49,047 nt of DNA from Verrucomicrobiota bacterium (lineage in GTDB: Bacteria > Verrucomicrobiota > Kiritimatiellia > Kiritimatiellales > Tichowtungiaceae): positions 1-49,047 of the forward strand of contig JASKKX010000003.1 in the NCBI GenBank assembly GCA_030153935.1, read 5' to 3'. Below, piece by piece: positions 7,430 through 44,933 of this stretch. The notes under the pieces were generated by a model. That model did not search any database. It was not told where the DNA came from and saw only the letters and a program-made list of their open reading frames with translations. The first letter of the stretch is position 1, and each line of letters begins with the position of its first letter. Position numbers and translations under genes: made by a program.

Positions 7430-7982
7430 AGAAAAAATCCGCGCTTTTATTGCCGTTGATCCCGGCGATGCGGTACGCGGCGAACTTTGCCGGATTCAGC
7501 GCGAACTCAAACAGTCGCTTGAGAATATGGATCTCGCTGTTAAATGGACCGTGCCGGAATCGTTTCATCTTACGCTTGTCTTTCTCGGCAGTATTCAGTC
7601 TGTCGACGCCGACAGAGTCTTCCAAACCCTGGAAAAAACTGCGCAAAAGTTTTCAAGGTTTGAAAATTCGCTCGGCGGGTTGGGTTTCTTTAAGTCGTCC
7701 GGGACTGTCTGGGTCGGTCTCGCCGTGTCGCAAACTCTTTTTGAGCTTCAGGCGGAACTGGCCGCCGCGTTTGAAATGTCGCCGAAATCCTTTCATCCGC
7801 ACATCACGCTGGGACGCATCAAATCGAAAAACCGAATCGGTCCGCGCTTTTTCCAAACGCTGGAGAATATTAACACCGTGCCGATCTGTTTTGATATCCA
7901 ATCACTGCGGATGATGAAAAGTGACCTGCTGCCGGAGGGAGCCAGGCACATACAGCTAAGCTGCGTGCCGCTTGCCCGGTAA
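7413..7982 (+). CDS. thpR: RNA 2',3'-cyclic 3'-phosphodiesterase (LigT/ThpR)
   Basis: A two-histidine phosphoesterase that opens 2',3'-cyclic phosphates on RNA ends. Both HxT motifs are present: HLTLVFLG near residue 50 and HPHITLGR near 128, the pair that defines the 2H superfamily. Length 189 residues is normal. ATG at 7413 gives MTALSEEKIRAFIAV, matching the family start; it overlaps the preceding gene. The reading frame contains two copies of the local palindrome, encoding FQTLEK (7620-7634) and FQTLEN (7851-7865). Confidence 0.88.
   Translation: MTALSEEKIRAFIAVDPGDAVRGELCRIQRELKQSLENMDLAVKWTVPESFHLTLVFLGSIQSVDADRVFQTLEKTAQKFSRFENSLGGLGFFKSSGTVWVGLAVSQTLFELQAELAAAFEMSPKSFHPHITLGRIKSKNRIGPRFFQTLENINTVPICFDIQSLRMMKSDLLPEGARHIQLSCVPLAR
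7620..7634. repeat. Dispersed palindrome copy (in thpR)
   Basis: TTCCAAACCCTGGAA, one mismatch from TTCCAANNNTTGGAA. The identical sequence occurs in the nucleoside phosphorylase gene at 32398. A weaker copy, TTCCAAACGCTGGAG, lies at 7851-7865. Confidence 0.7.
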
Positions 7983-8465
7983 TCGCGGAAATCAGCCTTG
8001 CCGTTCAATCGCCACAACAGTGTTTCTTCAGGTTTTTTTATCTTGATCGGTTTGGTGAGATATCTGGCCATAATGGATGGCGGTGTGTAGGGGCAGAACC
8101 CGTGGGAAACCCTTATGGATTTTTTTATGGCTCATATTATTCAGGAAAGCCGTTTGGAAGTCCCGGGAACGGTTCCGGATGGTGTTGAACTGGCACGAAG
8201 ACAGACAGAACGCGCAGATTACCACTTTGCCTTAAACCAATTATGGCAATGCCGGAATCCCTTACGGTCCCTCCTGGCCGGGCCAGCAGAGACGGCTCCC
8301 TTCAGTTATGCCTGTTTTAAAGTTATCAGGATATGAGTCGCAGATCCTGCCAAGGGTCTGCGGGTATGGAATAAAAGCAGAGGCCGTGCGGGAATTCAGA
8401 GATCGACGGTGCAAAAAGCGAAACGGCACTCTATTGAAGAACCCGCTGAAATCCGGTCGCGCCGC

Positions 8466-8480
8466 TTCCAAGGTTTGGAA
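8466..8480. repeat. Dispersed palindrome copy, perfect (purA promoter)
   Basis: TTCCAAGGTTTGGAA: six-base arms with a three-base centre. It ends one base before the likely -35 box of purA, the position of an operator or activator site. Confidence 0.75.
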
Positions 8481-8481
8481 A

Positions 8482-8510
8482 TTGACCCGTTCTCTGTGAT
8501 GGTTTACTCT
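8482..8510 (+). promoter_or_regulatory. Probable sigma70-type promoter of purA
   Basis: TTGACC at 8482-8487, 17-base spacer, TACTCT at 8505-8510. The -35 is good and the -10 weak. The palindrome at 8466-8480 abuts it. Confidence 0.45.
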
Positions 8511-42354: not shown

Positions 42355-42412
42355 CTTTACCTCCCGCAATCCCGTCTGAAATTCTTTTCCGAGCAGTTCA
42401 TTTGTTCTGTGG

Positions 42413-43507
42413 TCAGCTCCTCATTCGCTTGGCGTAGTGCCTGGAATCGCCCCATTCATTGAACCCGATGGTCTCTCCGATGCCCTGAATGCGGTGAGTG
42501 AGGCAGCCTCGGCACATGGAGGAGTTTTCGTCGAGACACGGTTTGTTGTCGTAGAGCCTATAGTTCGGACGATAGTCGGTTTCTGTAACATTCGGCATAA
42601 TCACATTCGCACCGCATTGCAGACCCATTTCCCGACCGGTATGTTCCAGCGCCTGCAGTGCGGTAGCCGCGGCGATATTGACATCTTTCAGAGTAATCCG
42701 TGTTACCGCAATCATTTTCAGTCCAAGTATCAGCGCAGCCTGTCTCTGCCCGTCTGTATAGGGCGGAATCTTTTTGCCCATCGGTGTATCACGGTGCGGG
42801 ATGTAGGGCCCCATACCGATCATATCGACATCAATCTCTTTCATGAAAAGGATATCGTTAACGAGGTCTTCGCTGGTTTGTCCAGGCAGGCCCATCATGA
42901 CGCCGGTGCCCACCTGGTAACCGGTTTTCTTCAGCAGTGCCAGACAGTTCTTGCGCACCTCCAGGCTGTGATCTGCCGGATGAAACCGGCGGTAGAGTTC
43001 CGGACTGGTGGTTTCAATGCGCAGCAGGTACCGATGTGCTCCGGCCTCCCGCCAGCGGCGGTAGGTTTCCTCCGTCTGTTCACCGAGCGACAGCGTGATC
43101 CCCAGTTTGCCGTCAGTTCGTTCTTTAATACGTTTAATGACCCGTTCAATTAGATCGATATAAGCGGAATCCTGTCGTTCACCGGACTGGATCACTGCGG
43201 AGCCATACTCGTTTTCGAATGCCCAGACCGCTTCGCGGACGATTTCCTCTTCATCCATCATAAAGCGCTCGACCTGCGTGTTGCTCTTGCGGATTCCGCA
43301 GTAATAGCAGTCTTTTACGCAAATATTGCTGCACTCAATGATGCCGCGGAAATAGGCGACTTTCCCGACGTATCTGGCCTTCACCCGGTACGCGCAGTCA
43401 TACAGCGCCTGAAGCTCCGCCGGATCAGAAATATCCAGCAAAGCTTTCATCTCCGCTGGAGTCAGTTCGTCATCACGGTCGACTTTATCTAATATGTTAT
43501 GGGACAT
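42413..43507 (-). CDS. hydE: [FeFe]-hydrogenase maturation radical SAM enzyme HydE
   Basis: Works with HydG and HydF to build the diiron subsite of [FeFe] hydrogenase. CSNICVKDCYYCGIRKSN contains the CxxxCxxC cluster motif (about residue 60). RIETTSPELYRRFHP and MMGLPGQTSEDLVNDILFM are typical. The tail CLDENSSMCRGC supplies extra cysteines like the second cluster of some HydE proteins. I choose ATG 43507 (MSHNILDKVD), 364 residues; the longer frame upstream overlaps hydG. Gap to hydG is 19 bases. Confidence 0.93.
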   Translation of the reverse strand: MSHNILDKVDRDDELTPAEMKALLDISDPAELQALYDCAYRVKARYVGKVAYFRGIIECSNICVKDCYYCGIRKSNTQVERFMMDEEEIVREAVWAFENEYGSAVIQSGERQDSAYIDLIERVIKRIKERTDGKLGITLSLGEQTEETYRRWREAGAHRYLLRIETTSPELYRRFHPADHSLEVRKNCLALLKKTGYQVGTGVMMGLPGQTSEDLVNDILFMKEIDVDMIGMGPYIPHRDTPMGKKIPPYTDGQRQAALILGLKMIAVTRITLKDVNIAAATALQALEHTGREMGLQCGANVIMPNVTETDYRPNYRLYDNKPCLDENSSMCRGCLTHRIQGIGETIGFNEWGDSRHYAKRMRS

Positions 43508-43526
43508 AGCGGTCCATTCCGTCTGA

Positions 43527-44933
43527 TTAAAAATAAAGGTCGCGATCACCAGCTTTGACCTGTTCGATGCGGTCGAGAAGCTGCGTTTTCTGATCTCCGA
43601 CAGGCATACGCTCCAGTTCGCGTGCGATCTGTCGCAGCCCGGCTTTATTTGTTTCCGGCGACCCGTAATCTTCCATGTATTCAAGGAAGGTCAGCACGGC
43701 ATTCGGGGTGCAGAATCGTTTGACAAATCCGGGGATGGCGAATTCCATGAAATGTTCGCCGGTGCGTCCGAGCCGGTAGCAGCCGGTGCAGAAGCTGGGC
43801 AGGAAACCGGCCTCACAGAGTTCACGAATCACCTGGTCCAGCGAGCGTCCGTCGTTGAGCACAAACTGACTCTTTTTGTAGCTTTCCCTGCTCTGAGAAT
43901 AGGCCCCGACACCGATGTCGGATCCGGCATCGATCTGGGAAACGCCGAACTGAATGACTTCATTCCGGATGGCCGTTGATTCGCGACAGGTCAGAATCAG
44001 CCCGGTATAGGGCACCGACAGCCGCAGAATAGCAATGAGCCGTTTGAAATCATAGTCGCTGACTCCGGCGGGCGGGTGGTCACACAGTGCCGTGCCGATG
44101 GCCGGCTCGATGCGCGGAAAAGAAATGGTGTGCGGTCCGACGTTAAACTTCTCTTCCAGATGGATGGTATGATAGAGCAGGGCCATGGTTTCGAAACGCC
44201 AGTCGAACAGTCCCATCAGCGCGCCGATACCGAGATCATCAATGCCGCCTTCCTGTGCCCGGTCCATACCGAAAAGGCGCCAGAGATAATTACTCTTGGG
44301 ACCTGACGGATGCATCGCTTTGTAGGTTGCCTGATGGTAGGTTTCCTGGAAAATCTGGTAGGTACCGATACCGGCGGATTTCACCAGTTTATACCCTTCG
44401 ACATCCAGTGGCGCGGCGTTGATATTGACGCGGCGGATTTCGCCGTTGCCGTGTTTCTGACTGTACACCTCTTTGACAGTGTCGTGAATGAACTGGGCAT
44501 CATATTTCGGATGTTCACCGTAGACCAGAATCAGTCGTTTATGACCCCGGTTAACCAGCTCTTCGATCTCTCGGTCCAGTTCGGGCAGTGTAAGTGATTT
44601 ACGGGCGACTTTCTTGTTGCTGCTGCGGAAACCGCAGTAACTGCAATTGTTAATGCACTCGTTCCCGACGTAGAGAGGAGCAAACAGCACGATGCGGTTG
44701 CCGTAGATCCGTTTCTTGAGTTCACGTGCCCCCTCGAAAATTTCTTCGGCCAGTGCCGGATCGTCGGCGTTGATCAACACCGCCATCTCTTCCGGATCAA
44801 GCCGCTTCTTATCCAGCGACTTAGCAATAATTTCGCGCACCCGTTCCACCGAGGGGTTTTTCGTACTTTCCAATGTCCGGAAAATTTCATTTTCCGGAAT
44901 AAAGGACGTCAATCCTTCCGTATTGATTTTCAT
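43527..44933 (-). CDS. hydG: [FeFe]-hydrogenase maturation tyrosine lyase HydG
   Basis: Radical SAM enzyme that cleaves tyrosine to p-cresol and supplies CO and CN ligands for the H-cluster. The motif CINNCSYCGFRSSNK lies near residue 97. IFQETYHQATYKAMHPSGPK and IGALMGLFDWRFETMAL are characteristic. The C-terminal iron-sulphur motif FCTGCYRLGRTGEHFMEFAI carries the second cluster cysteines. 468 residues. The start overlaps the hydF stop by four bases, so the two are co-translated. Confidence 0.95.
   Translation of the reverse strand: MKINTEGLTSFIPENEIFRTLESTKNPSVERVREIIAKSLDKKRLDPEEMAVLINADDPALAEEIFEGARELKKRIYGNRIVLFAPLYVGNECINNCSYCGFRSSNKKVARKSLTLPELDREIEELVNRGHKRLILVYGEHPKYDAQFIHDTVKEVYSQKHGNGEIRRVNINAAPLDVEGYKLVKSAGIGTYQIFQETYHQATYKAMHPSGPKSNYLWRLFGMDRAQEGGIDDLGIGALMGLFDWRFETMALLYHTIHLEEKFNVGPHTISFPRIEPAIGTALCDHPPAGVSDYDFKRLIAILRLSVPYTGLILTCRESTAIRNEVIQFGVSQIDAGSDIGVGAYSQSRESYKKSQFVLNDGRSLDQVIRELCEAGFLPSFCTGCYRLGRTGEHFMEFAIPGFVKRFCTPNAVLTFLEYMEDYGSPETNKAGLRQIARELERMPVGDQKTQLLDRIEQVKAGDRDLYF

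Follow-up and report, generated by a model that had tools for sequence, protein, structure and literature searches.

In cyanobacteria, the highly iterated palindrome HIP1 is short and very abundant, is swapped for alternates in some lineages and has an unsettled function (excerpts of PMC4390886). Excerpts of a study of Neisseriaceae DNA uptake sequences (DUS) mention dyad-symmetric DUS pairs (PMC3630211), and sites of Lrp/AsnC proteins show periodicities of 7-8, 18 or 30-31 bp in the parts of PMC8707732 available. The subject of this report is a gapped palindrome, TTCCAANNNTTGGAA, noticed in a 49,047-nucleotide stretch of DNA from a Verrucomicrobiota bacterium (the window, which is contig C81 of a 2.04-Mb draft genome in 100 contigs, here G000). 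Its carriers are read as members of the class Kiritimatiellia from the record titles of contigs with paired sites. Where a short motif recurs throughout a genome, it is usually a mark of uptake, recombination or segregation. The matS, Noc and SlmA sites are palindromes scattered over the chromosome and within genes, and NrdR sites lie about 31 bp apart, a spacing for which no printed source was found.

The Kiritimatiellia site resembles HIP1 in being a short palindrome far above chance genome-wide, in coding and non-coding DNA, with lineage alternates (PMC4390886, in part). Unlike HIP1, which reads GCGATCGC or a GC-rich alternate, it reads TTTCCAANSNTTGGAAA, is gapped over 14-17 bp, and is helically phased and arrayed. 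It is also rarer than HIP1. With DUS and the uptake signal sequences (USS) it shares over-representation both within genes, in whatever frame, and between them, along with altered residues and dialects around a conserved core (PMC3630211, in part); unlike these, it is palindromic and forms phased arrays, and carriers and non-carriers cannot be told apart by the presence of ComEC or DprA. Repeats about 31 bp apart recall Lrp/AsnC site arrays (PMC8707732, in part). Those arrays and NrdR sites belong to particular promoters, whereas the Kiritimatiellia sites lie genome-wide, coding DNA included, and no link to an Lrp gene was found. Compared with matS, Noc and SlmA sites, they are more frequent in rich genomes, form phased arrays and show no clear origin/terminus trend in the sample of genome G009. 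Repetitive extragenic palindromes (REP) and bacterial interspersed mosaic elements (BIME) are extragenic, longer and inserted; the present unit is short, occurs in coding sequence and shows no insertion at aligned coding sites. HIP1, DUS and Lrp/AsnC sites thus each share part of the pattern, and none shows genome-wide helical phasing in the excerpts at hand (PMC4390886, PMC3630211, PMC8707732). Among the literature listings searched, no earlier description of the palindrome appeared.

Phasing of neighbouring sites by whole helical turns is new here. It is the most informative feature of the palindrome and was not seen in the preliminary description. Among perfect sites in 144 sequences, many of them loci chosen for pairs 20-50 bp apart, the commonest neighbour distances are 32 bp (83 cases), 31 bp (79) and 22 bp (12). 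In unselected stretches of six genomes, sites with up to two mismatches form a ladder at 22, 31/32, 42, 53, 62-64, 73/74, 82-84, 94/95 and 104 bp, with a best period of 10.40 (201 pairs, R 0.83); the reversed motif gives 0 pairs. Removal of the 29-34 bp class leaves 101 pairs with R 0.74 at period 10.5. In 41 pairs both sites are coding, and the majority of these also fall on the ladder. Adjacent sites keep phase at separations of 36-110 bp (n = 28, R 0.72) and of 110-320 bp (n = 31, R 0.65; n = 28, R 0.62 after removal of three homologous repeats). In both ranges, the latter without the three repeats, none of 20,000 frame-preserving randomisations reached as high an R, which rejects an artefact of codon periodicity. 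At 320-520 bp, the phase fades for adjacent sites (n = 21, R 0.27, P 0.22), and all pairs in that range, not adjacent ones alone, give R 0.34 at a nominal p of 0.01. DNA twist is expected to decorrelate at roughly 320-520 bp. A requirement for one helix face that fades over about 300 bp very probably reflects a rigid multivalent assembly that binds along the DNA.

The phased sites also gather in arrays that contain as many as seven copies, and some of these are nearly symmetric in their spacing, for example 22-31-31-30-22. Comparison of spacers from one locus to another shows no relationship (mean identity 0.36). The window genome itself holds a 31-31-22 set on contig C6 at 829-927, with 1, 0, 1 and 2 mismatches, which overlaps a GIHP-encoding stretch and lies in a gene that we take by eye to be tatD-like; the gene caller had other frames there. 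One viral contig, L139, which encodes portal, protease and major head proteins, carries a four-site 31-31-41 array; a host DNA-binding protein fits this case rather better than a mark of self DNA.

Other repeated palindromes were met alongside these arrays. Three viral contigs (L132, L133 and L134) share a near-identical TTCCAA palindrome pair 28 bp apart, off the ladder and with a similar spacer. A further one (L141) has six TTCCAA palindromes at 7607-7846, irregularly spaced, with a GC content of 0.59 and with more extended flanks in common (G-TTCCAAACTTTGGAA-C and alike); its repeat may come from another lineage. Two loci (L037 and L043) of the metagenome-assembled genome RUG11506, labelled Prevotellaceae, consist of 22-bp tandem units containing palindromes of the TTCCA type, and their spacer (CAACTTA and alike) hardly varies. 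These tandem units and the viral arrays at 28 or 41-45 bp (L131-L134, L137, L138, L141) look like other repeats, unlike the phased arrays. Both groups are included in the 144-sequence distance count, and L037/L043 also in the contig sets used for intergenic density, AT periodicity, array listing and a second all-pairs phase set. The six-genome ladder, the 110-320 bp phase, the frame-preserving randomisation and the first all-pairs set exclude them.

Genome-wide over-representation of the palindrome is confirmed and is larger than could be seen from the window. The window genome contains 62 perfect copies of TTCCAANNNTTGGAA against one of the reversed pattern, which served as the genome-wide control, and all 13 same-genus relatives searched carry 71-793 sites each with 0-3 controls. 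Across a sample of 288 genomes of the phylum, members of the class range from 0 to 1339 sites, and genomes labelled outside it have 0-5 each. Paired sites were also sought in named genome contigs, which yielded at least 115 stretches. Among the 80 matches listed, the titles name Kiritimatiell-, Lentisphaerae, Verrucomicrobia, Spartobacteria or 'uncultured bacterium', with two Prevotellaceae rows and one Firmicutes row in addition. G009, a closed same-genus relative of 3,882,676 bp with 567 sites, was sampled in 20 stretches of 20 kb that hold 69 perfect sites. When all palindromes of the form 6-N3-6 are ranked in this sample, TTCCAA comes first with 69 copies and the runner-up has 3; the same half-sites with other gap lengths occur 0-2 times, so the spacing is fixed at three. 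Chance origin is rejected by this ranking, by the reversed control and by dinucleotide shuffles of the window, whose nine matches with at most one mismatch compare with a mean of 0.25 and a maximum of 2 in 100 shuffles.

Perfect sites outnumber one-mismatch sites in G009 (69 vs 55) and likewise in G010, G003 and G048. The consensus is TTTCCAA-N-S-N-TTGGAAA, with weaker outermost bases (tTTCCAA-N-S-N-TTGGAAa); the central base is G or C at 65 of the 69 G009 sites and at 94-100% across five sets, and one-mismatch sites mostly carry inner A-to-G changes. Nothing strong extends past two or three flanking bases, and this tight logo with little flank conservation points to a short recognition site rather than the core of a longer repeat. 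The inner bases differ between lineages. Genome G139 of family f20 has no TTCCAANNNTTGGAA and instead 234 copies of TTTTCCANNNNNTGGAAAA (control 0), including one TTTTCCAT pair spaced 31 bp, and in G195, the sole f18 genome read, all four core sites found are TTTCCGA...TCGGAAA, with two pairs at 31 bp. Counted without regard to dialect, the core TTTCC-N7-GGAAA numbers 1620 in G048 and 1193 in G344, and f11, f21 and f32 are among the families with background counts. Enrichment throughout the genome, in coding DNA and with lineage-specific alternates, bears out the earlier suggestion of a HIP1-like genome-wide mark. In the core table, G299 has 37 copies of the reversed control against 14 of the motif; every other genome has a control of 16 or fewer. 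The motif-free G051 shows recurring CTCTGTTCTCC-type 10-mers (L223-L226), apparently an unrelated repeat.

Sites were placed relative to genes with a home-made hexamer caller, which also served for intergenic density and array neighbours; gene starts are therefore approximate. Coding sequence holds 41 of the 69 sites sampled in G009, in agreement with the copies inside genes described earlier; these use all frames (19, 12 and 10), and the remaining 28 fall in the 10% of DNA that is intergenic (binomial p about 3e-11). For G048, coding sites number just 4 of the 24 sampled. The intergenic bias proposed for checking is seen in G009 and is not clear in the window genome, where 4 of the 19 distinct sites inspected (of 62) are intergenic. 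These 19 come from a list of 21 in which two sites appear twice owing to the overlap of loci L007 and L008; the list omits L003, which is contained in L004, and the site at 8466, called as coding, was reassigned manually as intergenic. The excess test itself used the double-counted 4 of 21. By eye, AT periodicity around the sites shows nothing clear apart from partner sites.

Coding sites appear to have formed where they stand. Aligned with orthologous genes, they are ungapped across the 15 columns except for one in an N-terminal stretch without a counterpart, and indels adjoin the site in three sets. In genes from nine relatives that are presumably prmC-like, four homologous positions are perfect in 3, 5, 3 and 6 genomes, and the low-copy genomes G007 and G008 have 4-7 mismatches at each of the four. 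Rich genomes are unevenly filled at these positions (G009 has 4 and 2 mismatches at two of them, G013 has 6 at one), and the differences are partly non-synonymous, as in LSGVCKT versus FSNVWKN. The ortholog comparison called for in the preliminary description therefore finds coding sites formed by substitution, in any frame and at times with a change to the protein. Its idea of active spread does not hold for the aligned coding sites, which are ungapped and lack conserved flanks. Because such in-place substitutions change residues, the force behind them works at the DNA level and is able to prevail over protein sequence.

These observations lead us to propose, at slightly better than an even chance, that the palindrome is the double-stranded recognition site of a homodimeric Kiritimatiellia DNA-binding protein, the predicted reader, which acts in a multivalent one-face assembly and most likely organises the nucleoid. 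Dimers placed on one face of the helix would favour the gain and retention of sites at distances of two, three, four, five or more whole turns. The phased sites would thereby build arrays of up to seven as well as looser sets over about 300 bp, and the assembly would fold or coat the chromosome as a sequence-specific nucleoid system. Coding sites would arise by base substitution where the protein permits, duplication helps to lengthen some arrays, and the inner-base dialect would differ between lineages. It is the combination of arrays, long-range phasing and the phage array that makes us lean towards a nucleoid role over uptake at the cell surface. In its broadest form, which we hold tentatively and at somewhat less than an even chance, the proposal is of a genome-wide positional code: palindromes on one helix face, in coding and non-coding DNA and in dialects, would be read by a multivalent lattice that organises or handles the chromosome, and the code would have force enough to rewrite proteins.

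Several observations weigh against a nucleoid-organising reader. Some pairs fall off the ladder (27, 29, 88-92 and 102 bp). Successive spacers within arrays of at least three sites are alike, with a mean identity of 0.60 and 8 of 32 at 0.7 or more; as they are more alike than spacers of different loci, tandem duplication has evidently extended some arrays (L044, L164, L241 and others). Duplication as the only source of arrays is rejected, since spacers are unrelated between loci and pairs at 22, 42, 53 and 110-320 bp share the phase. Our estimate for the proposed reader is unchanged because phasing at 36-320 bp is independent of the duplicated arrays. The window genome is poor in sites and has no clear intergenic excess. 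No clear chromosomal domain trend towards origin or terminus appears in the 20-stretch G009 sample, where site counts and distance to the GC-skew switch are uncorrelated (Spearman 0.16, p 0.49). A nucleoid protein has no obvious need for so many exact sites that are costly to proteins, and an uptake-type drive would explain this more easily. Finally, the binding protein was not found, with Lrp/AsnC examined across 107 genomes of the class. Lrp/AsnC is the best structural analogue, yet its presence does not track the motif: it occurs in 91 of the 107 genomes, motif-bearing or not, and 10 of the 16 without it belong to the motif-poor family f3. Of 20 lrp loci, three have sites directly upstream, and in two of these three the sites form phased pairs. 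Lrp/AsnC therefore finds no support as the binder.

The main alternative is a DNA uptake signal, which we consider appreciably less probable, at roughly one chance in three. A surface receptor would prefer DNA with the palindrome, self-transformation would spread the motif, and phased copies would raise avidity. Coding sites gained in every frame by substitution and at a cost to proteins would suit such a drive, as would intergenic enrichment without promoter bias and dialects like those of Neisseriaceae DUS (PMC3630211, in part). ComEC was found in 105 of the 107 class genomes and DprA in 101 (97 above the curated cut-off), regardless of the motif, so that the presence of either is rejected as a discriminator. 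The table of ComEC lengths covers 100 of the 107 genomes, leaving out G275, G120, G326, G347, G354, G161 and G177, which are fragmentary, ambiguous or have no ComEC frame. ComEC frames measure about 500-600 amino acids in f4, f5, f7, f11, f21, f26, f27, f32 and others, and about 760-920 in most other families. Outside f1 and f2, the motif, by cut-off, is present in 11 of 12 families with long ComEC versus 2 of 23 with short ComEC; in the twelfth long-ComEC family, f17, genome G057 has 111 TTCCAA sites. By genome, long ComEC goes with the motif in 38 and without it in 16, and short ComEC with it in 3 and without it in 34, a statistic that ignores kinship. Yet the window family f1 and f2 carry the motif although their ComEC proteins (four examined) lack a Lactamase_B match, as does the long ComEC of G048, the richest genome, and ComEC length is therefore only a lead toward uptake. 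The two f11 ComEC proteins examined lack the match as well. Many-turn phasing and arrays of up to seven copies would be unexpected if a single site per fragment sufficed, and the array on a viral contig also sits poorly with uptake.

A HIP1-like origin, in which an orphan methylase reads the site and methylation-dependent repair bias accumulates the motif, is improbable. For HIP1 too, sister lineages use alternates and the one-base deviants are biased (PMC4390886, in part), and the skew of one-mismatch sites to inner A-to-G changes fits; whole-turn spacing and multi-site arrays are not predicted by methylation or repair. Operators of an ordinary transcription factor regulon are more unlikely still, even though the palindrome suits a dimer and many arrays lie close to gene ends. 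Convergent intergenic regions are about as dense in sites as divergent ones in G009, in G010 with G003, and in G048, and twice as dense in the contig set, which argues against a plain regulon, and 41 of 69 sites in the G009 sample are intragenic. Next to arrays of at least four sites, 78 genes were printed, and the 50 scanned match 71 Pfam families, five of them in two proteins and the rest in one, with no shared functional theme. These densities and families reject an operator set and uphold the earlier statement that the copies are not operators for one regulon. Two of the 50 neighbour proteins match Schlafen AlbA_2 and two match HATPase_c_4 (RecG-C-like), with L025 matching both; these may simply be abundant families. 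Scarcely tenable, finally, is a REP-like mobile palindrome spread by a transposase. The high copy number and the mostly intergenic sites of some lineages, such as G048, would agree with it, while the lack of flank conservation past 2-3 bases, the unrelated spacers of different loci, and the ungapped coding alignments, with the N-terminal case and the neighbouring indels noted above, speak against it. For the aligned coding sites, a mobile repeat is rejected on the unconserved flanks and the substitution origin.

We know of no short genome-wide motif that stays in helix register for hundreds of bases, and still less of one that does so within genes; nor do we know of a counterpart for sequence-encoded, helix-phased bacterial chromatin. 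Should a protein lattice be the cause of the phasing, the structure of the bacterial chromosome could be read directly from sequence at these sites; should uptake be the cause, the sites would be a novel class of uptake signal that is read multivalently. Dialects, near-empty sister lineages and cultured relatives render both readings testable. The peptides that the DNA imposes, FQxLE, SNxWK and FPxxGK, also call for caution when Kiritimatiellia proteomes are interpreted.

Within the window, the four perfect copies named in the preliminary description all lie exactly where it had placed them. The copy at 8466-8480, TTCCAAGGTTTGGAA, stands by eye upstream of the ATG at 8557 of a gene we take to be purA-like; the caller began the frame at 8409 and so scored the site as coding. 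The copy at 9860-9874, TTCCAACCTTTGGAA, lies 23 bp past one stop codon and 2 bp ahead of the GTG at 9877 of a presumably uppS-like gene. The other two perfect copies are within genes and in frame 2: 17724-17738 encodes SNLWK in what we assume to be a DUF255/YyaL-like gene, where the G009 ortholog reads SDAWK without a gap, and 20458-20472 lies in a gene we take to be tyrA-like. One-mismatch copies stand at 4238-4252, 7620-7634, 32398-32412, 32869-32883 and 33191-33205. Those at 7620 and 32398 had been called as such, and the copies at 4238, 32867 and 33189, called degenerate before, are one-mismatch sites at 4238, 32869 and 33191. The ratio of perfect to one-mismatch sites is thus 4:5 in the window, so that one-mismatch sites are not the fewer, unlike in the relatives sampled.

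At up to three mismatches, the window has 44 matches against 14 for the reversed pattern, and a lone three-mismatch match therefore carries little weight. Of the copies described as degenerate, those at 7851, 33930 and 44868 (given as 44867) were recovered, as were 33159 (given as 33155), 32837 (given as 32834) and 19927 (given as 19935); the one at 39746 was not. Seven pairs of such matches lie within 70 bp, three of them at 31 or 32 bp. The first joins 7620, in open reading frame (ORF) 7368-7982, to a two-mismatch partner 31 bp away at 7651-7665. The other two are both in ORF 31963-33267, presumably deoA-like, which also holds the site at 32398: the site at 32869 has a three-mismatch partner, weak alone, 32 bp away at 32837-32851, and the site at 33191 has a two-mismatch partner 32 bp away at 33159-33173. 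Of the remaining four pairs, one has a separation of 65 bp and the others arise from three overlapping three-mismatch matches at 16788-16807. Two-mismatch sites from the same scan lie at 7851-7865, 33930-33944 and 44868-44882.

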